Below are positions 2,336 through 22,450 of a DNA stretch of 64,000 nucleotides, in pieces (position 1 is the first letter of the stretch; the number at the start of each line of letters is the position of its first letter). Under the pieces are notes generated by a model. It did not search any database. It saw only the letters and a list, made by a program, of their open reading frames with translations, and was not told the DNA's origin. The DNA comes from Hyphomonadaceae bacterium (GTDB lineage: Bacteria; Pseudomonadota; Alphaproteobacteria; Caulobacterales; Aquidulcibacteraceae), in assembly GCA_016791425.1 (NCBI GenBank), contig JAEUMQ010000014.1:1-64000 (forward strand), in the 5' to 3' direction. Made by a program: the position numbers and the translations under genes.

Positions 2336-5317
2336 ATGAAGGGCAAGACCACCAAGCGGGATGACCGCCGGCGAAAGCTGGCCACCGCTCTTATTCTCGG
2401 CGCCATGGGCGCCGCCGCTGCCGAACCGGTGTTCGCGCAAGACATCCAGCAGATCAGCGATGAGCGGATTGAATTCGATATCGCCGCTCAGCCTCTCAGC
2501 AGCGCCTTAAGCGAGTTCGCGCGGCAAGCGCGCGTCAATGCACTCTATTTCTCAGACGATCTGCGGCGACTCCCCTCTCCGCAATTGCGTGGTTCCTACA
2601 CACGCCAACAAGCGCTCGATCTTTTGCTTGCGCGCTCCGGCTACAACGGCCGCATCAGCGGCGGCAATCTTGTGCTGGCTCTGGAGCAATCCTCTCGCCC
2701 CCAGCAGGCGAGCGCCGCGAGCGGCGCTGAAACCACGCAGGCATCCAATTTAGCAGACGGCGGCACTGAAGACGAAGAAGAGATCGTCGTCACTGGCACG
2801 CGCATTCGTGGCGCTGTACCCGCAGGAGCGAACCTGCTCACCCTTGATCGCGGCAACATCGAAGAGAGCGGTCGCACGACTGTGCAGGATTTGCTGCAGA
2901 CTCTTCCCCAGGTTTTCCCCGGAAGCCAAGGCGAACTCACCCAGCTCAACTCCACCGCGCCCGGAAACAATATTGCCCTCGGCTCGACCGTTGACTTACG
3001 CGGGCTTGGATCGGACGCGACGCTTACGCTGCTCAACGGCCGGCGACTCGCGCCTGCAGGCTTAGGCAATTTCGTCGACATTTCCGCCATCCCGCTCGCG
3101 GCGATCGAGCGCGTCGAAGTCCTCGCCGATGGGGCGTCAGCGACCTACGGCAGCGACGCAGTTGGCGGCGTCGTCAACATTTTGCTCCGACGCAATCTGG
3201 AGCGTCCTGAAACCGCCGTGCGTTACGGCGCGGCCGACGGCATGGATGAAATTGGCTTCTCCCACGTCATGGGCGCCGATTGGGCGCAAGGCTCATTGAT
3301 CGCTGGGTACGAATATCGCCATCGCGACGCGCTGGCGGCCGCAGACCGCGACTTTGCCGCGAATTCGGATCTCACGGCCTTCGGCGGCTCGAACTTCTCC
3401 CGTTTCACCTCCGCGCCCGGAAACATCATCCTGGTCGGCGCAACCCCTGTGACGCTGGCGATACCCGAAGGGCAGAACGGCCTCACCCTGACCGAAGCAG
3501 ATTTGCTCGACGGCGTCGTCAATCTGCAGAACGGCAATGAAGGCACATTCCTGCTGCCCGAACAGGAAAGCCATTCGGTCTTCTTGTCCCTGAGCCAAGA
3601 CGTGACGCCAAACATCCGCGTCTTCTTGGATGTGTTGGCTTCGCAGCGGGAAGCGCATGCGGAGAAGGCGCAATTGGGCGGCGTCGTGGCGGTGCCAGAG
3701 ACAAATTACTATCGCCAGCAGAACGGTCTCTTTGCGGGCGATGGCACGCTCTTCATGGCCTATTCCTTCGGCGACGACTTCGGTCCGCTGATGACCGATA
3801 CACGCTCGGAGACTATCGCGACCGCAGGCGGAGCGCAGTTCGAGTTTGGCCGAGACTGGCAACTTGAAGCGAGTATCGGCTATGGCGGACATGCCGACAA
3901 TGTGGACAACACGAACATTGCGGACTCTGGAGCGCTGGCGGCGGCACTGGCCAGCTCTGATCCAGCAACCGCGTTCAATCCGTTCGGCGATGGCGGCGAC
4001 ACGCCGAGCGCCGCGCTTGCTGCTCTGACTATGCGCCAGCATATCGTGACCGATTCCGAGCTAGTCAGTTACGCGCTACGCGCCGACGGCGGTGTGTTCG
4101 ACTTGCCCGGTGGTCGCGCCCGCGTCGCCATCGGCGTCGAGCGGCGCCATGAAACCTTCAGCATCGACCGCCAAGAGATTTTCGGCTCAGGTCTTGTCAC
4201 CAACCCCTTCACGCAGGCGCCGGGGGAGCGCACCACAGATGCGCTTTACGCCGAGGCCTTCCTCCCGGTTTTCGACGCGGTGTCGCTTTCCTTATCGGTG
4301 CGGCGTGAAGATTCTTCGGACTTCGGCGAAGCGACAACACCGAAAATCGGGGTGCAATGGCGTCCCCTTTCCGATCTGACCTTGCGCGCGACCTGGGGCG
4401 AATCTTTCAAGGCGCCGCAATTTGCGCAGATGCTGGGCGGCACAGGCGCGTCGATCGGCTCGCTTCCTGGCTTCTTGGACCCCGACGCCACCAACGGCTC
4501 GACCGGCCTACTACAGATCCTCGGCGCCAACCGCGGGCTCGAACCCGAACAGGCTGAAACGTGGACCGCCGGCTTTGAGTTTGCGCCGTCATGGCTGGAC
4601 GGCTTCAGAGTGTCGGCAACCTATTTCGATATCGAGTTCACTAACCGGATTGCGAACCCTGGTTTCATTCTCGACGCGTTCCAGAACCCAGATCAATACC
4701 AGGGCTATTTCATCCGTAATCCTACGCCTCAGCAGATCGCAGACTATCTGGCGCTCGCCGACGACGTATCCGGAATCATTCCGCCCGACGGCATCGAAGT
4801 CATCTGGGACGAACGGCTGACCAACTTGGCTTCACTGCGCGTGCGCGGTGTTGATCTCTCCGCCTCTTATGCATTCGAAACAGATTGGGGCGAGCTTTCG
4901 CTGTTCGCGACGGCGAGCGGGCTTCTTCAGTTTTCACGACAGAACAATCCCTCGCTCGCCGATACCGACGTGCTCGACACCATACTCAATCCCGTTGACT
5001 GGCGCGCGCGGGCGGGCGTGGCGCTCGATACCGGTGCATGGCGCGGCGCGCTCTCGCTGCAATACACGGACGCTTACCGCGACAATCTGACCTCGCCCGA
5101 ACGCGAGATCAGTTCGTGGACAACCTTCGACGCGCGACTGACGCGCCGGTTCGGACAGAGCGAGGACGGCTCCGGCGCCGAAATCACGCTCGACATTCGC
5201 AATCTCGCCGATGAAGACCCGCCCTTCGCCAACAATCCGATCGGCATGGGGTTCGATACGCTGAATGTGTCGCCGGTGGGACGCGTTGTCATGGTCGAAG
5301 TGAGGCAGCGTTGGTAA
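2336..5317 (+). CDS. TonB-dependent receptor with STN domain, lasso-cluster associated
   Basis: A 993-residue outer-membrane receptor. It has a signal peptide ending near VFAQD, an STN (secretin/TonB N-terminal) domain about residues 45-115 (FDIAAQPLSSALSEFARQAR), a TonB box-like EEEIVVTGTRIR, a plug domain, and a large beta barrel ending in aromatic W. A GGAGGGGG Shine-Dalgarno lies just before the ATG at 2336. The stop overlaps the start of the lasso isopeptidase gene (TAATG), so the two are translationally coupled. In proteobacterial lasso clusters such receptors are thought to import the matured lasso peptide or its cargo for cleavage; that role here is inferred from the neighbours. The STN domain often implies signalling to a FecR/FecI pair, but none is present nearby. 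Confidence 0.9.
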   Translation: MKGKTTKRDDRRRKLATALILGAMGAAAAEPVFAQDIQQISDERIEFDIAAQPLSSALSEFARQARVNALYFSDDLRRLPSPQLRGSYTRQQALDLLLARSGYNGRISGGNLVLALEQSSRPQQASAASGAETTQASNLADGGTEDEEEIVVTGTRIRGAVPAGANLLTLDRGNIEESGRTTVQDLLQTLPQVFPGSQGELTQLNSTAPGNNIALGSTVDLRGLGSDATLTLLNGRRLAPAGLGNFVDISAIPLAAIERVEVLADGASATYGSDAVGGVVNILLRRNLERPETAVRYGAADGMDEIGFSHVMGADWAQGSLIAGYEYRHRDALAAADRDFAANSDLTAFGGSNFSRFTSAPGNIILVGATPVTLAIPEGQNGLTLTEADLLDGVVNLQNGNEGTFLLPEQESHSVFLSLSQDVTPNIRVFLDVLASQREAHAEKAQLGGVVAVPETNYYRQQNGLFAGDGTLFMAYSFGDDFGPLMTDTRSETIATAGGAQFEFGRDWQLEASIGYGGHADNVDNTNIADSGALAAALASSDPATAFNPFGDGGDTPSAALAALTMRQHIVTDSELVSYALRADGGVFDLPGGRARVAIGVERRHETFSIDRQEIFGSGLVTNPFTQAPGERTTDALYAEAFLPVFDAVSLSLSVRREDSSDFGEATTPKIGVQWRPLSDLTLRATWGESFKAPQFAQMLGGTGASIGSLPGFLDPDATNGSTGLLQILGANRGLEPEQAETWTAGFEFAPSWLDGFRVSATYFDIEFTNRIANPGFILDAFQNPDQYQGYFIRNPTPQQIADYLALADDVSGIIPPDGIEVIWDERLTNLASLRVRGVDLSASYAFETDWGELSLFATASGLLQFSRQNNPSLADTDVLDTILNPVDWRARAGVALDTGAWRGALSLQYTDAYRDNLTSPEREISSWTTFDARLTRRFGQSEDGSGAEITLDIRNLADEDPPFANNPIGMGFDTLNVSPVGRVVMVEVRQRW

Positions 5318-7341
5318 TGCGCCTCACGCGCGCCGCTGCTTTGGCGGGGATCACTCTCCTCATGTCGAACCAAGCAGCGGCGCGCCCCCCAAGCGCAGAG
5401 GATATGCTGACGCTGGTCGAACTCGGGGACTATCGCGGCGGCCTTTCACCATCCCCAGACGGCCAAAACATCGCGGTGTTTGCGCGCGAGACACGCGTCC
5501 GCGAAAATGACTATCGCTACCGGCTCCTTGTCATGCCGAGTTCCGGCGGGACGCCGCGTACGATTGCGGACGCCGGCGATATCATCCTGCGCAACACGCC
5601 ATACGGACCCACCGGCGCCGCGATGGATCGCGCGCCGGCATGGTCACCTGATGGCCGATATCTCGCCTACATGACGGCGCGCGAAGGACGCGTTGCACTC
5701 TGGCGCGTAGCGCTTAATGGGTCGCCAGCTGAATTGCTTGTCGACGGACCGGGAGACGTGCTGCGCTTTCAATGGCTCGACGACAATAATTTTGTGGTGG
5801 AGATAGACGCGCCACGACCGTCCCTCAGCGCAGCCGCCCTGCACGCCGAGCGCGTCGGGTTTCATCCGGATGAATTCTTTACGCCGTATGCGAGCCTTCG
5901 TCCGGTTGCAGCCACCCATATTGGCCGCACGCAGTTCGTGATCGACGTCCCAACGCTCACGCGACGCCCGGCAAACTCAGCCGAGAACGAGCTCTTGAAT
6001 GGGCGGCCTCGCGCTCCCGCACCAAACACCGCCATCGCGGAGGATAGAGCCGAAGGCAGCGTGACATGGATCGCGCCGCGTACTCCCGGCGACCGCGCCT
6101 CTACGCCTGCGCTTGGCCTCTACCGCGCTCAGCTAGACGGCGGCAGCGTCATCATGTGCGCGGATCATGCCTGCAGCGGACGAATGCTCGGCGCGTGGGT
6201 CTTTGGCGAGCGGATTGTATTCCGGCGCATGGAGGGACACGGCGCAGGTCTGACAGCCCTTTATGCATGGGACTGGCGGGCGAACACGGTCCACCGCATC
6301 CGACGAGAAGACGAAGAATTGTTTGGCTGCGTCCGCGCGGCAGATCGGCTGATCTGCCTGCAGGAAAGTCCGCTCCAGCCGCGCCGCATTATCTCCATCG
6401 ACGTCGATACGGGCGATCTCGTTGAACTCTACGATCCAAATCCCGATTGGCGTGCGTTCGACCAGCCGCGCATTGACACCATCGAAGTCAACGACGCTTA
6501 CGGCAACGCGTCCTTCGCTCATCTCGTCTTCCCTGCGGGCTATCGGCCGGGGCGTCGTTATCCAGTCGTTGTTGTGCAATACCGCTCGCGCGGCTTTCTG
6601 CGCGGCGGGGTCGGCGGCGAGTATCCCATTCTGCCGCTGGCCGGCCGCGGCTATTTCGTGCTGAGCGTCGATCGTCCGGAATGGCGCGGCGCCGAGGCAG
6701 CCCTTTCCCAAGCTGAACTCGATCAGCGGACCGCGTTAGACAATTCCGAAAATCTGATGAAGCAGTCAGCGCTGGAGGCGATGCTGGCTGAACTCGACAG
6801 GCGCGGCCTGAGCGATCCGCGCCGCATCGGCATTACTGGGTTCAGCGACGGCGCGGAGACCCTCTATTGGGCGATAACCAATTCCGACCTGTTCGCAGTG
6901 GCCGTCGCCAGCACCCAGCCCACGGATATGACCGCCTGGACGCTTGGCTCCCGCGCATTCCGTCAGAGCCTCTTGAGCGAAGGCATGCGCGGACCCAGTG
7001 CCGAAGATGACAATCCGTGGGCGGCCTGGTGGGCGCGCAATACGACCGTGCTGCATGCTGAGCGGATTCGCGCGCCCCTCCTCATGAACCTCGCGGAAAG
7101 CGAAGTCATTATGGCTTTTCCATTGGCGACACGGCTTGAAGAACTCAATCGTCCGTTCGACCTCTATGTCTATCCAGGCGCCTATCACGTCAAATGGCGT
7201 CCGGCTCAGCTCTTGGCCGCGCAGAGGCGGGCGATGGATTGGCTGGATTTCTGGTTACGCGGCGTCGAACGCGAGGATCCGGACGAGCCAGGCCGGCTAG
7301 AGCGGTGGCGCGCTTTGCGGGACCGCACTGGAAGCCGCTAG
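5317..7341 (+). CDS. AtxE2-like lasso peptide isopeptidase (prolyl-oligopeptidase fold)
   Basis: A 674-residue secreted protein: signal peptide (ends near NQAAARP), beta-propeller region to about residue 400, then an alpha/beta hydrolase domain. The nucleophile is Ser510 in GFSDGAE; His624 in GAYHVKW closes the triad; the acidic member is Glu594 or Glu596 in NLAESEV, as expected for lasso isopeptidases, which use a Glu-containing arrangement in this fold. The enzyme is predicted to open the isopeptide bond of the threaded lasso in the periplasm. The start ATG overlaps the receptor stop by one base. The 3' end overlaps the convergent cyclase gene by 45 bases. Without the neighbouring precursor, B and C genes it would be annotated simply as an S9 peptidase. 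Confidence 0.9.
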   Translation: MRLTRAAALAGITLLMSNQAAARPPSAEDMLTLVELGDYRGGLSPSPDGQNIAVFARETRVRENDYRYRLLVMPSSGGTPRTIADAGDIILRNTPYGPTGAAMDRAPAWSPDGRYLAYMTAREGRVALWRVALNGSPAELLVDGPGDVLRFQWLDDNNFVVEIDAPRPSLSAAALHAERVGFHPDEFFTPYASLRPVAATHIGRTQFVIDVPTLTRRPANSAENELLNGRPRAPAPNTAIAEDRAEGSVTWIAPRTPGDRASTPALGLYRAQLDGGSVIMCADHACSGRMLGAWVFGERIVFRRMEGHGAGLTALYAWDWRANTVHRIRREDEELFGCVRAADRLICLQESPLQPRRIISIDVDTGDLVELYDPNPDWRAFDQPRIDTIEVNDAYGNASFAHLVFPAGYRPGRRYPVVVVQYRSRGFLRGGVGGEYPILPLAGRGYFVLSVDRPEWRGAEAALSQAELDQRTALDNSENLMKQSALEAMLAELDRRGLSDPRRIGITGFSDGAETLYWAITNSDLFAVAVASTQPTDMTAWTLGSRAFRQSLLSEGMRGPSAEDDNPWAAWWARNTTVLHAERIRAPLLMNLAESEVIMAFPLATRLEELNRPFDLYVYPGAYHVKWRPAQLLAAQRRAMDWLDFWLRGVEREDPDEPGRLERWRALRDRTGSR

Positions 7342-9096
7342 AGCCGATATGGCGCGTTCACGCGCTGCCTCCAAGTTTCGGAGCCAACATTCGGCGGCGA
7401 TCAGGGCATAGAGACCGTCCGCCGCCATTCCGTCCTGCAACCAACCGCCCGCGAGCGCGCGTTCAAGCGCGTCGGCATCGACGACGCCGTCGTGAACGAG
7501 GCGCCCACCGCACAAAACGTCTCGAATCCACGACTCGTTGGCCGCAAGGACGGCCGCAAAGTAGCGAGTGGTTTCGCCCTTGGTGACGCGGCGCGCGACA
7601 TCGGGAGGAACAATATCAGCGAAGGCCGCGCGTGCGAGCGATCGTTCCTTGCCGCCCGCTGTCATCACATAGGGTGGAATGCGCAGACAAGTTTCGAAGA
7701 TCGGCTGCGATAGCAGCAACGGGTGCGTGCGGCCGCCGCCGGGGAGAGCGCCTTCATCAAAATAGCTGAGCGCTTGCAGCAACTGATGAATTCTAAGCAC
7801 GCGCGCCGGCGCTTCCCAACGCAGTTTGGCAAGCCACGCATGGTTGGCCAGCGCCTCAGCATCGTCCCCTGCCGGTTTGAGAGCGCCCATGACATTGGAA
7901 CGAGGCCGAACCGGCGGCTTGAGCCGCGCTGCGCCGACGACCATGGCGGCCAACACGTCCCAGACCGGCTGTCCGGTAAGCCGCGCGGTGTCGAGCGCGA
8001 TCTCCACGAGCGCACCGGGACGCACGCCATCGCAAAGCGCATCGGCCGCGATCGAAGGCGTGCGGCTTCGCTGGAAGATGTGGTCTCCGCCTTGACCGGA
8101 GGTGACAAGGCTTGCGCCAAGGTCGTCGTAGAATGGTATCAGGTCGCGATTGCCCAGAGTGAGCAGCGTAAGTGTCGGCTTGGCCGTAAGCGGCGCATTC
8201 AAGCACAGCGCATAATTTACCCGCGTCGGATCGAAGCGCAGCTCCTTGAGTTCTGCTTCATTTGCGGCTGCGACCGCGCGCGCGTGATCGCGTTCGTCAC
8301 CCTCGGGCGCGCCTTCCCAATATTCCGTGACGCAGATGACCTCCGCCTCGGTGTTGCGGCGTAGCAATCCCAGCATGACCGATGAATCGAAACCGCCTGA
8401 AAGTCGGAGCGCGATCCGCTGATGCGATCGGCCCCGCGCCTTTACGGTGGCGTCCGCCGCACTGCGCAACGCCTCTTTGCCTTCGCGCCAGTCAAGCGGC
8501 CTGTTGGCCCTCGCGAAATCCCGTGGCGTCCAAGCCGCCTCAATCCCCCATCCTTGCCGCGGATAGGTCGCGCACTCTCCGGGCGCCAGCTCTTCAACTC
8601 CCTCAAGCCCCGTTCGCCGGCCAACATGCGGAGGGTATCGCAAGAATGCGCGAATGAACCCGAGGTCGGCGCGGGTTTCGGGCGCTAGCCGAAGGAAGTC
8701 TTCGGCATCCGAGAAGAAGATCCGCACGCCATTGATCTCGGAAAAGAAGCAAGAACGCGCGCCGCTTGGATCGCGAAGCACGCGAACGATGTCAAAGCCG
8801 CGATCGATCAGGATGGCGACATAAGCGCCCCATCGCTCAGCGATCCATGTTGGCGTGGGATCGATGCACGACTCACATGGCGGCGACGGATCAGGCTCGC
8901 GCCCGAAACGTTCGCCGAGAACGAACCCCATACCATGAGGTAACATCTCGATGGGCCCAGCTCCGTGATGCAGCAGCACAAGGCCACGCCAGTCGATGAG
9001 AGACGTCGCGCCCTCAGAGAGGCGTTCAGAAAGCGCCCGCGCCGCGCGTGTCTGCTCGCGCTCTCCTGGCGTCCAGCGGAAACCAACGAACGCCAT
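7297..9096 (-). CDS. Lasso peptide cyclase (asparagine synthetase-like, C protein)
   Basis: A 599-residue asparagine-synthetase B-like protein. Residues 1-200 correspond to the glutamine-amidotransferase domain but begin MAFVGFRWT with no Cys2 nucleophile, so it cannot hydrolyse glutamine in the usual way. The PP-loop SGGFDSS lies at 233-239 in the C-terminal ATP-binding domain. In lasso systems this enzyme adenylates the ring-acceptor side chain (here probably Glu9 of the core) and forms the macrolactam with Gly1. It starts three bases after the B-protein stop, so B and C are co-expressed. The last 45 bases overlap the convergent isopeptidase gene. Confidence 0.92.
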   Translation of the reverse strand: MAFVGFRWTPGEREQTRAARALSERLSEGATSLIDWRGLVLLHHGAGPIEMLPHGMGFVLGERFGREPDPSPPCESCIDPTPTWIAERWGAYVAILIDRGFDIVRVLRDPSGARSCFFSEINGVRIFFSDAEDFLRLAPETRADLGFIRAFLRYPPHVGRRTGLEGVEELAPGECATYPRQGWGIEAAWTPRDFARANRPLDWREGKEALRSAADATVKARGRSHQRIALRLSGGFDSSVMLGLLRRNTEAEVICVTEYWEGAPEGDERDHARAVAAANEAELKELRFDPTRVNYALCLNAPLTAKPTLTLLTLGNRDLIPFYDDLGASLVTSGQGGDHIFQRSRTPSIAADALCDGVRPGALVEIALDTARLTGQPVWDVLAAMVVGAARLKPPVRPRSNVMGALKPAGDDAEALANHAWLAKLRWEAPARVLRIHQLLQALSYFDEGALPGGGRTHPLLLSQPIFETCLRIPPYVMTAGGKERSLARAAFADIVPPDVARRVTKGETTRYFAAVLAANESWIRDVLCGGRLVHDGVVDADALERALAGGWLQDGMAADGLYALIAAECWLRNLEAARERAISALAASSAVPQSAPPL

Positions 9097-9099
9097 GGG

Positions 9100-9744
9100 T
9101 CACACCCAGGCTATCGGCTTGAAAGACGCACAATGATCAGAACTGTCGCCGGCGAGCCTGCCTTCCCATTCGACCCAGCAGTGAGCGGCGAAGGGCGCCG
9201 TGCGCACGCCAAATACGAGGTCTGGTCTTAGCCCGCGCATCACCATGAAGCGAAAAAGCGCCAAGGCGTCAAAGAGACACACGCGCCGGCGCGGAAACCA
9301 GGGCCGGAATGCCTCGAACACACCAATCAAATGCTGCGCATCCGCCACTGGCATCACGGCGCGCGACTTCAGCTCCTCCAAGCGCGCCAGTGTCAGATCC
9401 AATCTGCGCCGTGCCAGCGTGCCTGCGGTCCACCAGCACGCGGACGCGCACAGGCCATACTCAAAAAGCGATGCACGAGAATGGTCAGTGGGGAGAAGCT
9501 TCTGCTCAGGCGCGGCTGTACGGGATTCGTGGGGCGCAGGACACGCCCGCGCTTGCTCAATCAAGCCCAGCTCAATGAGCCGCGCGCCGCTCCCCTGCGC
9601 ACATTCCGTCTCTGCCAATCCAGCGATGGCGGGAGCTGTCCGTAACGGCACGCTCCAATAGCGGTCGAGGCGCAAGTCGAGAAAGACGATATAGCCGCCG
9701 TCCGTGCATGCGCGAACGTGCGGGCTCAATTGGTAGGTTGTCAT
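9100..9744 (-). CDS. Lasso peptide B protein: fused leader-binding (RRE) and leader peptidase
   Basis: A 214-residue protein of the usual proteobacterial fused length. Residues about 1-85 form the PqqD-like RiPP recognition element that grips the precursor leader; residues about 90-214 form a transglutaminase-like cysteine protease with visible Cys156 (RRRVCLFDAL), His188 (FAAHCWVEW) and Asp200 (RLAGDS). It removes the leader so that Gly1 is freed for cyclisation. The gene starts 48 bases after the second precursor gene and ends three bases before the cyclase gene. Confidence 0.92.
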   Translation of the reverse strand: MTTYQLSPHVRACTDGGYIVFLDLRLDRYWSVPLRTAPAIAGLAETECAQGSGARLIELGLIEQARACPAPHESRTAAPEQKLLPTDHSRASLFEYGLCASACWWTAGTLARRRLDLTLARLEELKSRAVMPVADAQHLIGVFEAFRPWFPRRRVCLFDALALFRFMVMRGLRPDLVFGVRTAPFAAHCWVEWEGRLAGDSSDHCASFKPIAWV

Positions 9745-9792
9745 GGGCAGCGTCGCCGGGCGCGTGGTCCGCGCCCGGCGTTCCTCGCGAGT

Positions 9793-9924
9793 TCACATGT
9801 CGCGCATGTGCGGCGACACGAAGTTCTCTTTGAAAATCGGATCCCAAACACCGAGCGTGACTTCGCTCGCGGGCCCCAGGTCGGTCACGGTCTCGTCGTG
9901 ATCCAGGTCTTCGTGGGCTTCCAT
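9793..9924 (-). CDS. Lasso peptide precursor 2 (43 aa)
   Basis: A 43-codon gene, MEAHEDLDHDETVTDLG then PASEVTL, followed by the predicted core GVWDPIFKENFVSPHMRDM. The leader carries the proteobacterial lasso pattern DLGxASxxT with Thr at position -2 relative to the core. Gly1 and Glu9 of the core fit a nine-residue macrolactam, leaving a 10-residue loop and tail (NFVSPHMRDM). AGGAGC precedes the ATG by a normal spacing. Adjacent B, C and isopeptidase genes and a paralogous precursor 63 bases upstream make the call strong. Processing site, ring size and threading are inferred, not shown. Confidence 0.9.
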   Translation of the reverse strand: MEAHEDLDHDETVTDLGPASEVTLGVWDPIFKENFVSPHMRDM

Positions 9925-9987
9925 CTCAGAGCTCCTTCAGAAGTTGGTCCGCGGCGCAAACGACGACGTCCGCGCCGCAGAGGCCGA

Positions 9988-10113
9988 TCAGAAGTCGCGC
10001 GCTTGCGGCGTGACGAGGTTTTCCTTCTTCACGGGATCGTAGATCCCTTGCGTCACTTCCGTCGCAGCGCCGAGGTCCACGATGTCTTCTTGGCGTTCGA
10101 TATCTTCACGCAT
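9988..10113 (-). CDS. Lasso peptide precursor 1 (41 aa)
   Basis: A 41-codon gene: MREDIERQEDIVDLG then AATEVTQ, and the predicted core GIYDPVKKENLVTPQARDF. Leader motif DLGAATEVT places Thr at -2. The core is 19 residues, as in precursor 2, with shared positions G1, D4, P5, K8, E9, N10, V12, P14, R17 and D18, so the two are recent paralogs with variable positions 2, 3, 6, 7, 11 and the tail. A GGAGAG ribosome-binding site lies seven bases or so before the ATG. It is the first gene of the A1-A2-B-C minus-strand unit, downstream of a 108-base promoter region. Confidence 0.9.
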   Translation of the reverse strand: MREDIERQEDIVDLGAATEVTQGIYDPVKKENLVTPQARDF

Positions 10114-10221
10114 TGCACTCTCCATTCACCGCATGACCTTGCGGCGCGTAGAGTGTGCTGCGGCCCAGCAAGATTTGGGGGACAATCTGGTTAAAGATTT
10201 CGTTGGAAGTTTTAAGACGCT
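10114..10221 (-). promoter_or_regulatory. Promoter region of the lasso precursor operon
   Basis: The 108 bases between the GntR stop and the first precursor hold the only non-coding space where a lasso-operon promoter can sit. On the minus strand the 10-mer CGAAATCTTT occurs at 10193-10202 and is repeated upstream of luxR1 (13331-13340). Just downstream, AGATTGTCCCCCAAATCT has five-base inverted ends. No clear -35/-10 pair is visible. The site may bind the GntR protein encoded just upstream or an autoinducer-responsive regulator; both are inference. Confidence 0.4.
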
Positions 10222-10833
10222 TCAACCGCCATTATTGGGCATCGCCTTGGCGTGCGCCGCACTTCTTATCACGGCGCAATGACTGATGCGCCGGTCAAAA
10301 TATCTGCGCAGCTTATTAGCGAGTACAGCGCCGCCGCGATCAAGTGAGGCGACGATCTGATTCAACTCCTCATGAGCGCCCGGCAGCGCGTCAGTTTCAG
10401 CGCGCAGCGCCTGCTGAAGACGCTCATCGGCGGAGCGGCCAGCACGCCGGGCCTCGGTGTTGGCGTTGCGATCGATATGGCCCATCATCGCCAAATAGGC
10501 GGCGGCATAGTCAGTGTCCGGCGACAGCGCCGAGGGGGATTCCGGCGCATATGATTGCAACGCCCACTTCGTCAGGTGTTGACGCCACTGATAAAGCTCA
10601 CGCAGCTCTCGCTCCGACCAAAACGCCACTTGATATATCCGCGACGTATTCAGTCTGACGAGGCGCTCTGCGGCCAGTATGGCCAACGCATACCGAACCG
10701 GCGTGGCACTCACGCCAAACTGAGAAGCAAGCTTGTCAATGTCGAGACGTTGCAGGGTCACAAGCTCGCCCGACAAGATTGCTTGTTTTATCTCCTGATA
10801 GACGCGTTCGCCGGGACGCGGATCAAGCGCCAT
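10222..10833 (-). CDS. GntR-family transcriptional regulator
   Basis: About 203 residues: an N-terminal winged helix (VYQEIKQAILSG ... LDIDKLASQFGVSATPVRYALAILAAERLVRL) and an all-helical C-terminal effector domain resembling FCD. The frame opens at 10860, but ATG at 10833 is preferred: it follows GGGGTGGGG and gives a normal short tail before the helix-turn-helix. It overlaps the end of the dioxygenase gene by 11 bases, so it is translationally coupled to luxI and the dioxygenase. Position immediately upstream of the precursors suggests it controls them; the effector is unknown. Confidence 0.82.
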   Translation of the reverse strand: MALDPRPGERVYQEIKQAILSGELVTLQRLDIDKLASQFGVSATPVRYALAILAAERLVRLNTSRIYQVAFWSERELRELYQWRQHLTKWALQSYAPESPSALSPDTDYAAAYLAMMGHIDRNANTEARRAGRSADERLQQALRAETDALPGAHEELNQIVASLDRGGAVLANKLRRYFDRRISHCAVIRSAAHAKAMPNNGG

Positions 10834-11722
10834 CCCCACCCCGTGTGTCGCTCGCGGCATAGTGCGCTTTGAGCTGCGCCTCGATCTCCGGTGTCAGCGC
10901 ATCAACGTGCGGCATGAACCCACGCCGCTCCCGCAGGTAGTTGATCGGATCCTGCCCTTCCCAGCCGCCAAGATTGGGCCGGTGAATGCGATAGCCGATG
11001 AGCTGTTGGAGATCTGTCGGAAAGGAAGCTGCGACCTCGCGCGGATAAGCCAGAAATTGATTCTCATACGTCTTGAGCCATCCCAAGCAGTAACTGACGA
11101 TGATTCCGGTGCGTGGGAGCGCGGTGAGGTTCTGGCCTGCGCCGTGCGTGAGCGAGCCCAGGAAGAGGAGCGCCGAGCCTGCCTTCATGGCGCCGGGCAC
11201 ACTTTCGGCGGGATCGACACCGCGATCCAGCGCCGCGCGGTGGCTACCCTTCCAAAGCCGCGTCGCGCCATTTTCCTCGGTGAAGTCGCTCACGGCCCAC
11301 ATGACGTTCAAGAGCCAGTGTTTGCCGCCGGTGGGCCACGACCACATCTCTTCATCGCGGTGAGGCGCTTGGGGCCGCTCTTGACCATGGACCCGCACGG
11401 CTTGCGTCAAATTGAGCTGGATGCAGTCGCAGTTCGGTTTGAGCAATGCCTCCGCGATCGCCAAAATGTAGGGGTCCATGACCAAATCGCGCGCGCTTGG
11501 CGCCTTCGAGAGAAGCCCGCCGACGCGCGTCGTATTCCAACCGTAGAAATCGCCTTCGCACCTGGGCGTCGCTTCGAGCCAAGGCTCGAGCTCCTCCGCG
11601 AGCCTGCGGCAGCGGCGCTCGTCAAGCCGGTTTTCAAGTACGACAAATCCGTCGCGCTCCAGGATCGACAAATGATCCTGATCTGCCGGCGAAAACGGCA
11701 CGACGTTCGAAGCTTTCATCAT
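10823..11722 (-). CDS. Phytanoyl-CoA dioxygenase (PhyH)-like Fe(II)/2-oxoglutarate oxygenase
   Basis: A 299-residue double-stranded beta-helix oxygenase. The metal ligands are visible as His121-x-Asp123 (APHRDEEMW) and His193 (LTHGAGQN), with Arg204 a likely 2-oxoglutarate anchor. The ATG at 11722 follows AAGGAG at good spacing, and that ribosome-binding site overlaps the luxI stop, so it is coupled to luxI. It might hydroxylate the lasso core or a signal-related small molecule; the family is broad and the substrate cannot be told from sequence. Confidence 0.85.
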   Translation of the reverse strand: MMKASNVVPFSPADQDHLSILERDGFVVLENRLDERRCRRLAEELEPWLEATPRCEGDFYGWNTTRVGGLLSKAPSARDLVMDPYILAIAEALLKPNCDCIQLNLTQAVRVHGQERPQAPHRDEEMWSWPTGGKHWLLNVMWAVSDFTEENGATRLWKGSHRAALDRGVDPAESVPGAMKAGSALLFLGSLTHGAGQNLTALPRTGIIVSYCLGWLKTYENQFLAYPREVAASFPTDLQQLIGYRIHRPNLGGWEGQDPINYLRERRGFMPHVDALTPEIEAQLKAHYAASDTRGGDGA

Positions 11723-11734
11723 GGTGTTTCTCCT

Positions 11735-12364
11735 TCAGGCCGCCTGAGTGACATCGCCGCCGAGAAATCGGGTGACCGGCGCCTTGATGCCGTTGCGCTG
11801 GCGCACGCGCTTCAAGCCTTGCTGATCGATCGACGCGACAAAAGCCGTGAGACGATCTCCGCCGACACGGCGCGATCGGCCTAGCGGCGCCACATCCCAG
11901 CCCGCCCTTGCCGCGAGCGGCGTGAGCGCTGCGCTCGCAACAAAGGTGACGCGCTCGGTGCCGAAGATAAGCGCAGTCTCCATGATGCCGGCGATGATGC
12001 GGGCGAGCAGATCGTGGCGCGGCTGGCCGTGTGCCGTATCGGGTGCAGGACAAAACCGCGTCGCTTCCCACACATCGGGCCCTGCGGGCGGGTCGCCATC
12101 GCACAGGAAGCGGAAGTGATCGGCCAAAAGATGTGGTCGATCGGTCTGCAGGAGGCGCGCTGAGCCCATAACCGGGGCGCGCGGCGCCGCCGCTTCGATA
12201 AGATAGATCGCCTCCGGGCAATCGTACGAGTCGATCTCGATGCCGGCGCTTTCCTCCAGGCGCCATTTCATCTGATCGATGAATACCTCTTTGCGCTGGC
12301 GATGCATCTCCATCAGCGCGTGGTGATAATGGCGCCGGTTTTCAGCGGTGATGATGTGGATCAT
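11735..12364 (-). CDS. luxI: Acyl-homoserine-lactone synthase (LuxI family)
   Basis: A 209-residue LuxI-type enzyme that makes acyl-homoserine lactone from S-adenosylmethionine and an acyl donor. Conserved features are the N-terminal RxxVF segment (HRQRKEVFIDQMKWRL), the acidic pair in IEIDSYDCPEAIYLI, GSARLLQT and the WEATRFC block. ATG at 12364 (MIHIIT) is chosen over the upstream ATG at 12421, because the family begins here, GGAG lies just before it, and the upstream start would sit on the lux-box palindrome. It heads a minus-strand unit with the dioxygenase and GntR genes. Confidence 0.92.
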   Translation of the reverse strand: MIHIITAENRRHYHHALMEMHRQRKEVFIDQMKWRLEESAGIEIDSYDCPEAIYLIEAAAPRAPVMGSARLLQTDRPHLLADHFRFLCDGDPPAGPDVWEATRFCPAPDTAHGQPRHDLLARIIAGIMETALIFGTERVTFVASAALTPLAARAGWDVAPLGRSRRVGGDRLTAFVASIDQQGLKRVRQRNGIKAPVTRFLGGDVTQAA

Positions 12365-12420
12365 GGGGGCTCCGGTCGTCAAAGGGACGGCCAGAGCATG
12401 CGGATTTCGAGCCGGTCGCA

Positions 12421-12442
12421 AATAGGCACGGACGTGCCTATT
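12421..12442 (-). promoter_or_regulatory. Candidate lux box (perfect 10+2+10 palindrome)
   Basis: AATAGGCACG-GA-CGTGCCTATT reads as a perfect 10-base inverted repeat with a two-base spacer, 57 bases upstream of the luxI start. Length, symmetry and position match LuxR-type operators that autoinduce luxI. On the minus strand a TTGCGA just after it could act as a -35. A second shorter palindrome, GATCACGTGATC at 12453-12464, lies between it and the luxR1 stop. Confidence 0.78.
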
Positions 12443-12467
12443 GACAGGGCCGGATCACGTGATCTCA

Positions 12468-13193
12468 TCACACATCTTCGAGCCTGATCTGCCCGTCTTT
12501 GAGCGCGCGCACGAACGCCTGCACGCGGCTTGCGACGCCATATTTGTGCATCGCGCGGCGGACGATGTTGTGCACCGTGTGCTCGCTAAGCCCCAGGATC
12601 ACGGCCATGTCGCCATCGTCCTTGCCTTGGCCCAACAGCTGTACACATTCACGCTCTCGTGGGCTTAAGACGGGCTTCGCAGGTATCCCCGCAAGACGCA
12701 GTCGCCGCGCGCATTCGTGTGCATAGACGCCGTACCAAGTGGCTTTCTGCGCATTGAGCGGATCAACACCATCTGGCCCAATGACCAGCGAGCAAGAGGC
12801 CGGCAATGCGTCGGGCGCATGGATGGGAATAGTGATCCCATCGACGAGGCCTGCTTCGGCGGCTTCGTTCAATATCCGAACTTGATCGGCCGCAAGGCCG
12901 GCGCGAAAGACGCGGTCGCTCCACTGAAATGGGAGAGTCTGACGTCTGGCCCGCCAATAGACTGGATCGCGCTTCGCATAGTTCTGGTCACTGAAGCGCT
13001 GCAGCCATGGAAGCGGATAGTCCACCATCATCACCGCTTCCGCGGGCGGGCGCAGCGGATCGACATGAGAGGCGCATGCGGCATGTGTGAAGCCGAGTTC
13101 GCGGATTTCGCGCATGAACGCGGCATGAAGTTCTTCAACGCTCGTGGCGCGATCGCAGACTTCTGCGAACGCCCAATTGATCCGGGCTTGCAT
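12468..13193 (-). CDS. luxR: LuxR-family quorum-sensing regulator 1
   Basis: A 241-residue LuxR protein. The autoinducer-binding domain (about 15-165) keeps the signature Tyr, Asp-Pro and Trp residues (NYAKRDPVYWRA ... PFQWSD) and GLVDGITIPIH; the C-terminal GerE helix-turn-helix starts at LSPRERECVQLL. Both features favour a true AHL receptor. It lies just upstream of luxI on the same strand with the lux box between them, so it is the likely cognate receptor. Confidence 0.9.
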   Translation of the reverse strand: MQARINWAFAEVCDRATSVEELHAAFMREIRELGFTHAACASHVDPLRPPAEAVMMVDYPLPWLQRFSDQNYAKRDPVYWRARRQTLPFQWSDRVFRAGLAADQVRILNEAAEAGLVDGITIPIHAPDALPASCSLVIGPDGVDPLNAQKATWYGVYAHECARRLRLAGIPAKPVLSPRERECVQLLGQGKDDGDMAVILGLSEHTVHNIVRRAMHKYGVASRVQAFVRALKDGQIRLEDV

Positions 13194-13307: not shown

Positions 13308-13339
13308 GAAATCTTCACCACGATTTTGGGAAAGATTTC
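13308..13339 (-). promoter_or_regulatory. Inverted repeat upstream of luxR1
   Basis: GAAATCTT at 13308-13315 and AAGATTTC at 13332-13339 form a perfect eight-base inverted repeat separated by 16 bases, in the 163-base gap between luxR2 and luxR1. The right arm includes the 10-mer AAAGATTTCG also found upstream of the lasso precursors. It could be an operator for luxR1 or a terminator of luxR2; the lack of a clean U tract favours an operator. Confidence 0.4.
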
Positions 13340-13356: not shown

Positions 13357-14091
13357 TCAAGCGATCGGTTTGATCTGGCCAGAACTGATTGCACGCGCCA
13401 CGGCCTGAATGCGTGTGCTCGCACCCAAGCGTACCCGCGCGCGCTCAATATGGCGCCGGACCGTGGCGACGCTAAGCCCCAGCCCTTGCGCAATCTCAGC
13501 ATCGAGGAGACCACTGGCGCAAAGCTCAAGGCATTGCCGCTCGCGCCGGTGTAGCTCTGCGAAACGGGGCGCCGATGCGATGCACATCTCTGCCGCGCGG
13601 TGATGCACGACCACATTGATCAATTTGCCGGCGGAATACACTTCTTCCGGCATGTCCGGCTCGCTCGTCACCAAGGAGGCGGATGCGCGACGCGGAAGAA
13701 TCGAGGCCAGCTTATGGGTGCGCCCATGGCGGAGCCCGAATTCGCGCGCCTCATTGAGGATACGGCGCTGACGCCAAGACAATGGCTGAAGAAACTCGGG
13801 GTCAGTCCAAACGAAGTCCCCACTCCCGGCCTCCGCCGCGCGATAGACCGGATCCACGAGGTGGTAACGCTGCGCTGAAAAGTGGGCGATCCATTCCTCG
13901 GGGTAGTTCTGGAATACATACGCCGCGTGATCGGGCCGCAACGGGTCGGCATGGACGCCGAGAGCCACGAAGGTGAATCCCATCTCAACCAAACGCTCTC
14001 GCCAAATACTTTCCAGTTCGAGCAACGTCGCCGCCGCATCGCACGCGGCGGCGAAGGCGATCATCTCGGCGCTGATGAGGTTTTCGCGCAT
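13357..14091 (-). CDS. LuxR-family quorum-sensing regulator 2
   Basis: A 244-residue LuxR protein beginning MRENLISAEM (ATG at 14091; the frame runs upstream to 14292 but the extra residues are not LuxR-like). It keeps RYHLVDPVYRA and the FVWTDP tryptophan of the ligand pocket, and a GerE domain from HRRERQCLELCASG. The segment after EFGLRHGR (THKL) departs from the usual GxTxPxH pattern, so ligand choice may differ from LuxR1. It is divergent from the traG-trb conjugation operon and may control it. Confidence 0.88.
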   Translation of the reverse strand: MRENLISAEMIAFAAACDAAATLLELESIWRERLVEMGFTFVALGVHADPLRPDHAAYVFQNYPEEWIAHFSAQRYHLVDPVYRAAEAGSGDFVWTDPEFLQPLSWRQRRILNEAREFGLRHGRTHKLASILPRRASASLVTSEPDMPEEVYSAGKLINVVVHHRAAEMCIASAPRFAELHRRERQCLELCASGLLDAEIAQGLGLSVATVRRHIERARVRLGASTRIQAVARAISSGQIKPIA

Positions 14092-14179
14092 GCAACTCGA
14101 AGTGTAGCCGATTTTGAACGCCACATCACCTGGCAAGCGCCGCCTTAATTGAGCGCTTAACACCAATGCGCGTGATGAA

Positions 14180-14193: not shown

Positions 14194-14271
14194 CGTCGCG
14201 GGTCGCGCGGCATGCCTCGATAGAGTTGCAACATGTGGCGCCATTAGGAATTGGGCGAGACGCTTCTGCTC

Positions 14272-16305
14272 ATGTGGGAGCGGACGTTTCATATGCGATT
14301 GGTGTGGGGCGGCATCGCCGCCGCTTCAATCAGCGTGCTTGCGTGCTTCGCCGCGACCCAGACATGCGCACGGACGTTCAACTACCAAGCAGCGCTCGGC
14401 AGGCCAGCCTTTGTATTCGGCTCGACGCCGATTTACGCACCCTTCTCGGTTCTGACCTGGTCGGAGCGCTGGAGCGCCAACTACCCGCGCGCCTTTGCGT
14501 TGCCGAAACTGTTCGTCTTCGTCGGTTTCCTATCGAGCGCGATGCTTGTGCTGCTCGCGCTGAAATCGCCCCATCCCAGCCAGCGGCCGTTCGGCGCAAA
14601 GAGCTGGGGCGGCCGCAAGGATGCACGCGAGGCCGGCCTCTTCGCTGAAGGCGGCATCATCATCGGCAAATTCGATGGCGAGATTCTCGCCTACGATGGC
14701 CCACATCACCTCTTGCTGACTGGCGGCACGCGCTCGGGCAAGACACGCGGCAGCGTCATCCCGACCTTGCTCGCCTGCCCGCATTCGATCCTCGTCTTGG
14801 ACTTGAAGGGCGAACTTCATTCCGGCGACACGCGCGTGGATTTTCCCGGCACAGCGGGTTGGCGCGCAAGGCTCGGCCCGGTGATCCGTTTTGCACCGAC
14901 CGAGGCAATCTCGGATCGCCTCAATCTCCTGGATACGATCCGGCCAGGCGCTCAAGAGGTGCGAGACGTTCAAAATCTCGTGGAGCTCATCGCCGACCCA
15001 TACGGCGACGGGCGTTTTCAGGAGTTTTGGGACCGCGCCGCCAAGCAAATCCTCGCCGGGCTGATCATTCACGTCGTGTACGCTGAGCCCCTTCCGAGCA
15101 AGACACTGGCGCGCGTATTCGAGTTGCTCGCCCGCTTCGACGACACCGTAAAGCTGATGGAGGCGACGCTCCATCGCAAGAACGAAGAAAGCGGCGAGCC
15201 TGAAACGCACCCCGAAGTAAAGCGCGCCGCCCACTCTTACGCCGCCTATCACGAGAAGTTACGCGCCGGCATCAAGGCGACAGCCGAGAGCTATCTCGGC
15301 CTCTTCGCCGATCCGCTCGTGCGCCAGAACACGGCGACATCGACCTTCCGCATTTCAGACCTCATGTGCGCCGACGAGCCGGTGACGCTTTATCTGTGCT
15401 GGCCGCCCAACGACGCCAAGCGAGTCAAACCGCTCATTCGCCTCGTCTTCGGTGCAGTCCTCCGCGTGCTGATGGAGCATCAAGAACGCGCCGCCGACGG
15501 ACGTGAAAAGAAGCGCAACCTTCTTCTTTTGCTCGACGAGTTTCCCCAACTCGGCAAGCTCGACGTGTTCGAGCAATCGATGGGCGCGATGGCCGGCTAT
15601 GGCCTCAAAGCCTATCTCGTCACCCAGTCACTGCATCAGGTCACGCAAGCCTATGGCCGCTATCACACGATTCTAGATAATTGCCAGATCGTCACGAGCT
15701 TTGCCGCAACCGATGTTGAAACAGCCGAGACGATCTCCAAGCTTGCCGGCGACATCTTTGAGATGCGTCCGCAAGAAACCTGGTCGGGCAAGCGCCAATT
15801 CTTCGGGCTTGACCACCGCGCAATCACGTATCGAGAAGAACGCCGCCCGCTGCTGCTATCGTCTGAGGTGCGCCGGCTCAGCGAAGGCGAGGAACTGATC
15901 TTCGTCACCGGCGCAAAGCCGTTACGCGCCCAGAAACTGCGTTACGACGAGGAGCCGATCTTTCGAACGCGGCTGCTGCCCGCCCCTGCGGAGGCGCGCC
16001 GGCGCACACTGCCTTCACCTTGGACCGGCATCTCGTCACTCGGCTTCGCGCAACGCCGAGCGCCCGACGCACCGCCAGGACGCGATGGCGCAATTGTTCG
16101 CGCCCTCACACAGAAAACGCCGCTGCGTTCGCGCCCAGCACCGGAACAACAACAGGGCGACCTCCTTTCTGCACTGGAAGCGAACCAACCAGATCAGAGC
16201 GGCGAGGCTGACCCCTCATCCGCCGCGCAAGCCGCGCCTCCAGCGTCCTCACGCTTTGCGTTGCGTCCGTCTTCCGCCGATTCCGCCAGCGAGGCCGGCT
16301 CATGA
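14272..16305 (+). CDS. traG: Type IV secretion coupling protein (TraG/VirD4)
   Basis: About 677 residues. Two N-terminal membrane segments (LVWGGIAAASISVLACFAAT and LFVFVGFLSSAMLVLLALKS) are followed by the Walker A LTGGTRSGKTRGSV, the VLDLKGEL block and Walker B LLLLDEFPQLGKLD. It delivers relaxase-DNA to the trb channel. The C-terminal 80 residues are Pro/Ala-rich and probably disordered. Starts at 14251 (TTG), 14272 or 14293 are all possible; 14272 is a compromise since no strong Shine-Dalgarno is seen. It overlaps the next gene by four bases and is first in the traG-trb operon. Confidence 0.93.
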   Translation: MWERTFHMRLVWGGIAAASISVLACFAATQTCARTFNYQAALGRPAFVFGSTPIYAPFSVLTWSERWSANYPRAFALPKLFVFVGFLSSAMLVLLALKSPHPSQRPFGAKSWGGRKDAREAGLFAEGGIIIGKFDGEILAYDGPHHLLLTGGTRSGKTRGSVIPTLLACPHSILVLDLKGELHSGDTRVDFPGTAGWRARLGPVIRFAPTEAISDRLNLLDTIRPGAQEVRDVQNLVELIADPYGDGRFQEFWDRAAKQILAGLIIHVVYAEPLPSKTLARVFELLARFDDTVKLMEATLHRKNEESGEPETHPEVKRAAHSYAAYHEKLRAGIKATAESYLGLFADPLVRQNTATSTFRISDLMCADEPVTLYLCWPPNDAKRVKPLIRLVFGAVLRVLMEHQERAADGREKKRNLLLLLDEFPQLGKLDVFEQSMGAMAGYGLKAYLVTQSLHQVTQAYGRYHTILDNCQIVTSFAATDVETAETISKLAGDIFEMRPQETWSGKRQFFGLDHRAITYREERRPLLLSSEVRRLSEGEELIFVTGAKPLRAQKLRYDEEPIFRTRLLPAPAEARRRTLPSPWTGISSLGFAQRRAPDAPPGRDGAIVRALTQKTPLRSRPAPEQQQGDLLSALEANQPDQSGEADPSSAAQAAPPASSRFALRPSSADSASEAGS

Positions 16306-16751
16306 CGGCCAGACCCAAAAAGAAGATCACGATCTATCTTGAGCACGATCTCGCGCGAGCGCTGGACTTGGAGGCTCGTCTCCGCGGACTGCCGACGACG
16401 CGCGCGGCGGCAGATGCGCTGCGCCGCATCTTCCTCGATGGAAAGGATGAAGCGGTCGCTGACACTGTGAAGATGCGTCTCGACCGCGTTGAAAAGCGCG
16501 AAGTAGTGCGCGAGCGCGAAATCGCCATCGTCAAGGAGACGCTGCTTCTCTTCATCCGAGTGTGGCTGGAGCACACGCCGCCGCCACGGGAGGAAACGCT
16601 CGACGCCACCAACGCTGTCGCCGAGCGGCGCTTTCAGTCCTTCCTTGAACTTCTCGCCGAGAGCATGGCGCCCGGTCAGACGCTCTTTCCCTACGCGGCC
16701 CACGGCCGCCGAGCAGACGCCGGCGCGCCCATGAATGGAGCGGCGGAATGA
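16302..16751 (+). CDS. Ribbon-helix-helix (CopG-like) protein of the conjugation operon
   Basis: A 149-residue protein with an N-terminal KKKITIYLEHDLARALDLEA strand-helix-helix typical of RHH DNA-binding proteins, then a coiled, charged segment (VEKREVVREREIAIVKE). The same gene commonly sits between traG and trbB in alphaproteobacterial conjugative modules. It overlaps both neighbours by four bases (ATGA). It could bind oriT-proximal DNA or autoregulate the operon. Confidence 0.78.
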   Translation: MTARPKKKITIYLEHDLARALDLEARLRGLPTTRAAADALRRIFLDGKDEAVADTVKMRLDRVEKREVVREREIAIVKETLLLFIRVWLEHTPPPREETLDATNAVAERRFQSFLELLAESMAPGQTLFPYAAHGRRADAGAPMNGAAE

Positions 16752-17689
16752 ATGCGATCTCCCCCTCTCAGGAGCGCATCGTAGCCGAGCGGCGCCTTGC
16801 ATCCCTGACAGGCGCTCTCGGTCCGGCGTTGCAGGCCGCTTTGGCCGATGACGCCGTCGTCGAAGTGCTGATCAATTGCGATGGCCTAATGCGCGTCGAT
16901 CGCGTCGGCCGCGGCATCGAGGTGACAGACGCACGCCTTAGCGTCGCTGAGCGCGAAACCGCGATCCGCCTCTTAGCGGCCGAAGCATTCGAAACAGTGA
17001 CTGAAGACCATCCCTTCCTCGCCGCGACCCTCCCCGGCTCCGGCGCGCGGGTGCAAGCGCTCATCGCGCCCATCGTCCGCGCGCCGGTGTTGGCGATCAG
17101 GAAACGCCCCAAGCTCATCTACACGCTCGACGACTACGTTCGTGCTGGCATCGCCTCGTCCGCACAAGCGGCAAAGTTGCGTCAAGCCATCATCTCGCGG
17201 CGCAACATCGTGGTCGCCGGCGGCACAGGCTCAGGCAAGACGACGCTCCTCAATGCGTTGCTCGCAGAGCCCGACTTCTCCGCTTCGCGCCTGCTCATCT
17301 TGGAAGACACGGCGGAACTGCAGTGCGCCGGCGCCGATGTGGTGCAACTCCTCACCAAGCGCACGCATCCCCAGGTCTCGATGCGCGATCTTGTGCAAAT
17401 GACCTTACGCCTGCGTCCCGATCGGATCGTCGTGGGCGAAGTGCGCGACGGCGCAGCACTCGAAGTCTTGAAAGCGTGGAACACCGGCCACCCCGGCGGG
17501 CTCCTAACCATCCACGCCAATTCCGCCGCTGACGCGCTGCTGCGGCTGGAAGATCTCTGCCTCGAAACCGGCGCTGCGCGTCCCGAGCGGCTGATCGCGT
17601 CCGCCGTCGACACGATCGTCTTCATGTCCCGCACGGCGGAAGGCCGCCGCATCGAGGAAATCGTCAGCTGCAAGGGAGACCAGCGATGA
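16748..17689 (+). CDS. trbB: Conjugal transfer ATPase TrbB (VirB11 family)
   Basis: A 313-residue VirB11-type hexameric ATPase. It shows Walker A VAGGTGSGKTTLLNALL, the Asp box ILEDTAELQC, Walker B RPDRIVVGEVRDGAALEVL and the His box GHPGGLLTIHANSA. Located on the cytoplasmic face, it powers pilus assembly and substrate transfer. It is coupled to genes on both sides by four-base overlaps. Confidence 0.95.
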   Translation: MNAISPSQERIVAERRLASLTGALGPALQAALADDAVVEVLINCDGLMRVDRVGRGIEVTDARLSVAERETAIRLLAAEAFETVTEDHPFLAATLPGSGARVQALIAPIVRAPVLAIRKRPKLIYTLDDYVRAGIASSAQAAKLRQAIISRRNIVVAGGTGSGKTTLLNALLAEPDFSASRLLILEDTAELQCAGADVVQLLTKRTHPQVSMRDLVQMTLRLRPDRIVVGEVRDGAALEVLKAWNTGHPGGLLTIHANSAADALLRLEDLCLETGAARPERLIASAVDTIVFMSRTAEGRRIEEIVSCKGDQR

Positions 17690-18006
17690 AAACATCACGC
17701 TTCAAAGTGGTCGTGACGGGTGCGGCGATCGTGCTTGCGCTTTCCACAGTTGAACCAGCGTTCGCCTCCGGCTCCGGCATGCCGTGGGAGGCGCCGCTGC
17801 AGCAAGTGGTGGACTCGATTACCGGGCCTGTCGCGCGCGCAGCGGCCGTCATCGCCATCATCATCTCGGGTGTCGGCATCATTTTTGGCGAAGGCGGCGG
17901 CGGCATCAGGAAGCTCGCATTCGTGGGCCTCGGCATCGCCATCATGTTCGCGGCCGTTTCATTCTTCCTCGACTTCTTCGGTTTTGCCGGCGGGGCGGTG
18001 CTCTGA
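17686..18006 (+). CDS. trbC: Conjugal transfer pilin TrbC (VirB2 family)
   Basis: A 106-residue pilin: signal peptide cut near PAFASGSG, then two hydrophobic helices (AAAVIAIIISGVGIIFGEGG and LAFVGLGIAIMFAAVSFFLD) with the glycine-rich hinge usual in VirB2/TrbC. It starts within the trbB stop and ends at the trbD start. Confidence 0.92.
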   Translation: MKTSRFKVVVTGAAIVLALSTVEPAFASGSGMPWEAPLQQVVDSITGPVARAAAVIAIIISGVGIIFGEGGGGIRKLAFVGLGIAIMFAAVSFFLDFFGFAGGAVL

Positions 18007-18269
18007 TGCTTGATGAACCCGACGGCTATCGAATCTCGCTGCGCACATCGTTGACGCGTCCGCTCCTCATTGCAGGCGTGCCGCGCACATTCGCGATCAT
18101 GAATGCAACGGTCGCTGCCGCCATTGCTTTTGGTTTGCAACAGCCGCTCATCGGCATCCCGCTTTGGGCAATCGTTCAAGGCGCCGGCGCCTACGGATCA
18201 TCGCGCGATCCCTGGTTCTTGGACACCTGGCCGCGCGCCATGGCCAAGCCTTCCTATTTTAGCGCGTGA
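18006..18269 (+). CDS. trbD: Conjugal transfer protein TrbD (VirB3 family)
   Basis: An 87-residue membrane protein starting at the ATG that overlaps the last base of the trbC stop (TGATG). The motif LTRPLLIAGVPRTFAIMNAT and the paired membrane helix then WFLDTWPRAMAKPSYFSA match the VirB3/TrbD family. It belongs to the inner-membrane complex with TrbE and is too short to be reported by length-based gene lists unless the start is chosen carefully. Confidence 0.92.
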   Translation: MLDEPDGYRISLRTSLTRPLLIAGVPRTFAIMNATVAAAIAFGLQQPLIGIPLWAIVQGAGAYGSSRDPWFLDTWPRAMAKPSYFSA

Positions 18270-18276
18270 GCCGGCG

Positions 18277-21458: not shown

Positions 21459-21463
21459 TCCAC

Positions 21464-22432: not shown

Positions 22433-22450
22433 CATGGAGAAGGTAGCGCC

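Follow-up and report, generated by a model that had tools for sequence, protein, structure and literature searches.

Lasso peptide gene clusters that contain an isopeptidase share an 'almost constant' architecture, and the biological role of their products has been called enigmatic (PMC9266682). Separately described luxR-luxI-phyH(-gntR) loci of sphingomonads (novR-novI-phyH) place quorum-sensing genes beside a phyH gene encoding an enzyme whose reaction is yet to be described; at novI3 of Novosphingobium subterraneum, a gntR gene adjoins phyH (PMC5012321). A further sphingomonad arrangement, 'topology T', has the order luxR-luxR-luxI-phyH-X-virB (PMC4288048). The papers that describe these sphingomonad luxI-phyH loci make no mention of lasso peptides.

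Here we analysed a 64-kb stretch of DNA (hereafter the window) in which these two kinds of locus meet. Like benenodin/astexin-type alphaproteobacterial clusters, it has A-B-C lasso genes, a convergent AtxE2-type isopeptidase gene, a TonB-dependent receptor gene and a gntR gene before the precursor, with no ABC transporter seen among the cluster genes. Unlike them, it carries luxR-luxI-phyH directly upstream together with a lux-box-like site. It shares the luxR-luxI-phyH order with the novR-novI-phyH loci, but continues from this module into lasso A, B and C genes. As in 'topology T', two luxR genes, luxI, phyH and type IV secretion system (T4SS) genes occupy one neighbourhood, whereas in the window lasso genes after phyH replace X and the T4SS is placed at the opposite end, past luxR. 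Judged from its genes, the locus belongs to a known cluster type, of which it represents a quorum-sensing-linked form with new peptide members. In the open-access literature we found neither a coupling of luxI to an isopeptidase-type lasso cluster (the single paper found to name isopeptidase, lasso and homoserine lactone together touches on acyl-homoserine lactones, AHLs, only in passing) nor a lasso paper for the window's bacterial family (Terricaulis/Hyphomonadaceae), and no paper there connected lasso peptides with phytanoyl-CoA dioxygenase. The union of luxI-phyH and isopeptidase-type lasso genes in a single locus, seen in many Caulobacterales and in some sphingomonads, joins two open questions, and the luxI linkage offers a testable clue to the purpose of a poorly understood lasso peptide class.

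The original prediction placed two precursor genes, of 41 and 43 codons, ahead of lasso B and C genes, and both reading frames were found where it had put them, on the minus strand. A1 (9988-10113, minus strand, 41 aa) encodes the leader MREDIERQEDIVDLGAATEVTQ followed by the core GIYDPVKKENLVTPQARDF, and A2 (9793-9924, minus strand, 43 aa), arranged head to tail with A1 and preceded by the ribosome-binding-like sequence AAGGAG, encodes the leader MEAHEDLDHDETVTDLGPASEVTL followed by the core GVWDPIFKENFVSPHMRDM. The mechanically called A1 reading frame spans 45 codons (9988-10125), and the 41-codon form starts at its second ATG. The longer form is possible, but we consider the shorter one likelier because a ribosome-binding-like GGAGAG stands just 5′ of the second ATG with better spacing, and because many related precursors have an MRED-like start at the same point. 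Both cores comprise 19 residues with Gly1 and Glu9, and both leaders have Thr at -2, again as foreseen; the lasso precursor signature, Thr at -2 followed by a small residue at position 1 and Asp/Glu at positions 7-9, is present in A1, A2 and all of their orthologues. When 30-75-aa reading frames across the whole window were scanned with the pattern D[LW]Gx[AV]xxxTx[GSA]..[DE], A1 and A2 were the sole matches. No other reading of these sequences comes close to that of lasso precursors. Computed masses of the lasso forms are 2171.1375 Da for core 1 and 2286.0714 Da for core 2.

Several features set the precursors apart from the benenodin/astexin type: there are two of them, their ring sequence, G-[VI]-[WY]-D-P-x-x-K-E, is new, and they match the NCBIfam benenodin family lasso peptide model NF033522 only weakly, below its cut-off of 33 bits (A1, 29.1 bits; A2, 18.4 bits), so we left them outside that model. 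The suggestion that the cores were novel stands as far as the open literature and PLSDB reach, with neither core string in any open-access paper and A1 on no PLSDB plasmid.

The C protein, used as a query against genomes, recovered three public metagenome-assembled genomes (MAGs), titled Terricaulis sp., Hyphomonadaceae and Hydrogenophilaceae, each of which keeps both precursors at the same position. All four genomes have the same core 1, and A1 codons differ between genome pairs by 2-7 synonymous and 0-1 non-synonymous changes, which argues for a selected protein rather than a chance reading frame; the pattern indicates strong purifying selection on A1. Short length, and nothing else, would favor the view that A1 and A2 are chance small open reading frames; four-genome conservation, the mostly synonymous changes in A1 and the homologous pairs at the same position in many clusters rule it out for practical purposes, and we give it virtually no chance. 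A2 is conserved but drifting: core 2 differs at a few positions, and genome pairs show 4-12 non-synonymous codon differences in A2. This drift, set beside an invariant core 1, could mean that A1 alone is functional and A2 is a drifting duplicate, but none of the four genomes has lost Thr(-2), Gly1, Glu9, D-P or the R-D tail from A2, and paired precursors are the rule in the family, making this reading very unlikely. Two observations concern the MAGs themselves. The contig from the MAG titled Hydrogenophilaceae clearly groups by sequence with Terricaulis-like genomes, so that title is probably wrong, and in the Terricaulis MAG (L011:8001-9797 / L062) the C gene is in three pieces, through a frameshift or an assembly error, with the precursors intact.

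The remaining lasso genes bear out the claim that the precursors lead into B and C. B (9100-9744, minus strand), a transglutaminase-like leader peptidase, passed the NCBIfam lasso B2 cut-off (NF033537, 69 bits against 33) and matched PF13471 at 66.5 bits. Its N-terminus had no Pfam match even at E 10, and an RRE/PqqD domain there was accordingly dropped. C (7297-9096, minus strand) is an asparagine-synthase-type macrolactam synthetase (PF00733, 81 bits against a cut-off of 21); all lasso-specific NCBIfam C models stayed below their cut-offs, the best being NF033561 at 112 bits against 300, and a comparison of C with solved structures gave no match. Convergent to these genes, an AtxE2-type lasso peptide isopeptidase (5311-7341, plus strand) scored 577 bits against NF033523 (cut-off 400) and aligned with AtxE2 structures 5txc and 5txe over nearly its whole length (E 1e-103). 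The alignment with 5txc places a Ser, a Glu and a His at what we take to be the AtxE2 triad positions; Ser occupies the position that reads Ala in 5txe, and the Glu and the His are conserved. The adjoining TonB-dependent receptor (2336-5317, plus strand; PF00593, PF07715) has an N-terminal STN-like segment that fell below the STN cut-off, and a GntR-family regulator (10222-10860, minus strand; PF00392) is encoded directly 5′ of A1. As expected of isopeptidase-type clusters, gntR comes before the precursor and the receptor lies beside the isopeptidase. Because B, C, a triad-bearing AtxE2-type isopeptidase, a TonB-dependent receptor and GntR all occur together, the locus is assigned, from its sequence, to the isopeptidase type, a known kind, and its cores are new members. 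Unlike benenodin/astexin-type clusters, the window has no FecI/FecR pair beside the receptor, the sole FecR of the genome being encoded at C16:186835, whereas several relatives have the pair; since the published architecture is only 'almost constant', we treat this absence as variation.

Upstream of gntR, on the same strand, the parts of a LuxI/LuxR circuit score above their Pfam cut-offs: a LuxI-type AHL synthase (11735-12364, minus strand; PF00765, 78.9 bits) and two LuxR-type autoinducer-binding regulators, LuxR1 (12468-13193, minus strand; PF03472, PF00196) and LuxR2 (13357-14094, minus strand; PF03472, PF00196), the latter found only in the closest clusters. The minus strand therefore reads luxR-luxI-phyH-gntR-A1-A2-B-C, head to tail. 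The window's family repeats this order, luxR-luxI-phyH-gntR-A-(A)-B-C facing isopeptidase-receptor, in nearly every cluster that is uncut by a contig end; one intact family cluster without luxI (L059) is an exception. In a survey of 249 genomes of the order, which contain 39 isopeptidase loci and 97 luxI genes, luxI lay within 12 kb of 27 isopeptidase loci, against about 0.4 expected from the number of luxI genes; one of the 27 (G033:C3:1088713) is counted through the luxI of a neighbouring cluster, leaving 26 distinct luxI genes, and several of the 12 loci without luxI are cut by contig ends. Viewed from the other side, 18 of the 21 luxI genes in 11 isopeptidase-bearing genomes are at a lasso cluster.

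Across Caulobacterales and sphingomonads, luxI and lasso genes stay linked in three different gene orders. In f5, a second family of the Caulobacterales, the luxR-luxI-phyH block is divergent, pointing away from gntR-A-B-C. A plasmid of Sphingomonas paeninsulae carries the same order as the window, and the Novosphingobium PP1Y and ES2-1 plasmids (L131, L136) show the third arrangement, in which gntR and luxR-luxI-phyH are on the receptor side of the lasso cluster: luxR-luxI-phyH-gntR continues as sigma-fecR-receptor-isopeptidase, and C-B-A faces this run. On sphingomonad plasmids, too, lasso clusters adjoin tra/trb genes. Isopeptidase clusters of Sphingomonas panacis, Novosphingobium resinovorum, Sphingobium RAC03 and Asticcacaulis DW145 have no luxI, so the class at large can do without quorum sensing; the module is common, not universal, at isopeptidase-type clusters.

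Directly past luxR2, the window contains T4SS/conjugation genes (14251-25118) encoding TraG, a VirB11-like ATPase, VirB4, TrbL, VirB8, CagX and TrbI. This neighborhood raises the alternative that the lasso cluster is an ordinary isopeptidase-type one and that luxR-luxI-phyH is merely a neighbor, regulating the adjacent T4SS and co-travelling with the lasso genes on a mobile element. The luxR-luxR-luxI-phyH-X-virB arrangement is indeed described in sphingomonads (PMC4288048), and luxI-phyH also occurs on conjugative plasmids; as some of these are free of lasso genes, part of the luxI-lasso link could reflect shared mobility. Yet luxR-luxI-phyH is present in most of the family's lasso clusters where the stretch examined contains no homologue of the window's T4SS genes, the f5 family maintains the link in another orientation, and in the window luxI and the lasso genes share a strand, with no sigma-70-like site detected in the interval. 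We consider this alternative unlikely, though it carries more weight than the others weighed here, and favor a quorum-sensing module that belongs to the lasso cluster.

The phyH gene (10823-11722, minus strand) encodes a PhyH-type Fe(II)/2-oxoglutarate oxygenase (PF05721, 96.6 bits) whose PDB relatives include 2-oxoglutarate oxygenases from natural product pathways, and its H-x-D...H candidate iron ligands, H121, D123 and H193, are invariant in our alignment. These conserved ligands, together with the overlap of phyH with gntR in the same gene run, would suit a tailoring enzyme that hydroxylates the peptides, so that the cluster would make modified lasso peptides. We regard this as improbable: PhyH is ~59-71% identical among family clusters that share almost no core sequence, and phyH stands beside luxI even at loci without lasso genes, including conjugative plasmids. 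Because phyH follows luxI in this way, the most likely target of PhyH is the AHL branch, not the peptide.

A perfect lux-box-like palindrome, AATAGGCACG-NN-CGTGCCTATT (10+10; 12421-12442), lies in the luxR1-luxI gap, 56 nt before luxI. At about -70 to -83, most lasso-linked luxI genes are preceded by a similarly designed palindrome built from other, mutually matching half-sites, such as AATAGGTCCC/GGGACCAATT, CAATGGGCCG/CGGCCCATAG and AATAGGCCTG/CAGGTCTATT, which 0-3% of shuffles equal; a clear palindrome before luxI is wanting in L049, L051, L053, L130 and L131. Half-sites that change jointly would be the pattern expected of a regulator site changing with its regulator. The gntR-A1 gap holds a conserved motif, GAAATCTTTAACCAGATTGT (10182-10201, minus strand), with a second copy upstream of luxR1 (13308-13327). 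The shared pattern GAAATCTTYAMCMMGATT, located 5′ of A1 (10182-10201) and luxR1 (13308-13339), had three matches in the window against 0.02 expected, although it was drawn from two of them; it is possibly an operator of GntR or LuxR2. A promoter scan from 9700 to 12500 found no sigma-70-like site. As a different kind of promoter could sit in the 108 nt between gntR and A1, luxI to C may or may not be a single transcript.

Taken together, these features make it probable that the cluster produces two paralogous 19-residue Gly1-Glu9 lasso peptides and couples their synthesis to an AHL quorum-sensing circuit of its own. At quorum, LuxR-AHL would bind the palindrome and raise luxI-phyH-gntR, and A1-A2-B-C would be raised either directly or through GntR, which would tune the precursor genes. 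B would then cut behind the Thr(-2)-X dipeptide to remove the leader, C would join Gly1 to Glu9, and an exporter would release the two peptides; the TonB-dependent receptor may subsequently re-import them for linearization by the isopeptidase. More speculatively, the lasso pair might form a second tier of cell-to-cell signalling, in which kin import the AHL-switched peptides by way of the cognate TonB-dependent receptor and the isopeptidase reads out or ends the signal. On this view, which we hold tentatively, as a minority possibility, isopeptidase-type lasso peptides would serve these lineages in quorum communication, or as a shared good under quorum control, and not in antibiosis.

Finally, we compared precursors across the family, where pairing, like the quorum-sensing module and the isopeptidase, went unremarked in the original prediction and is more informative than the core strings. 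A profile built from eight precursors found homologues in 14 of 60 family genomes, and reading the stretch 5′ of B in about 40 clusters showed that the window's family mostly has two precursors per cluster. Cores of family clusters are diverse, with 14-20 residues, and the analysis yields about 25 related clusters in which they are mostly paired. The ring type of the window recurs in the second cluster of a relative (G046), with the cores GIYDPIRKENFVDPEARDLQ and GVWDPLLKETHETPESFPM. Across 15 clusters, cores were more alike within than between clusters (mean score 44 against 3.9 when shuffled, with none of 20,000 shuffles as high, related clusters being weighted equally), so precursor pairs arise or evolve together. 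The window's own genome has a second lasso cluster (L012:2316-5000, G000 contig C16), which has a luxR-luxI-phyH-gntR set to itself and only one precursor, whose core is GEVIKADSEFPLQGYREE. Cores of 14 residues, mostly paired, occur in L109, L110 and L112, all three of which are luxI-linked, and also in L108 and L113; GGVDTEIEDREPLF and GGVDHLMEDRDPLM are examples. The L114 precursor has a predicted core with Ala at position 1, AIGNTGVEPNGQPLYFK.
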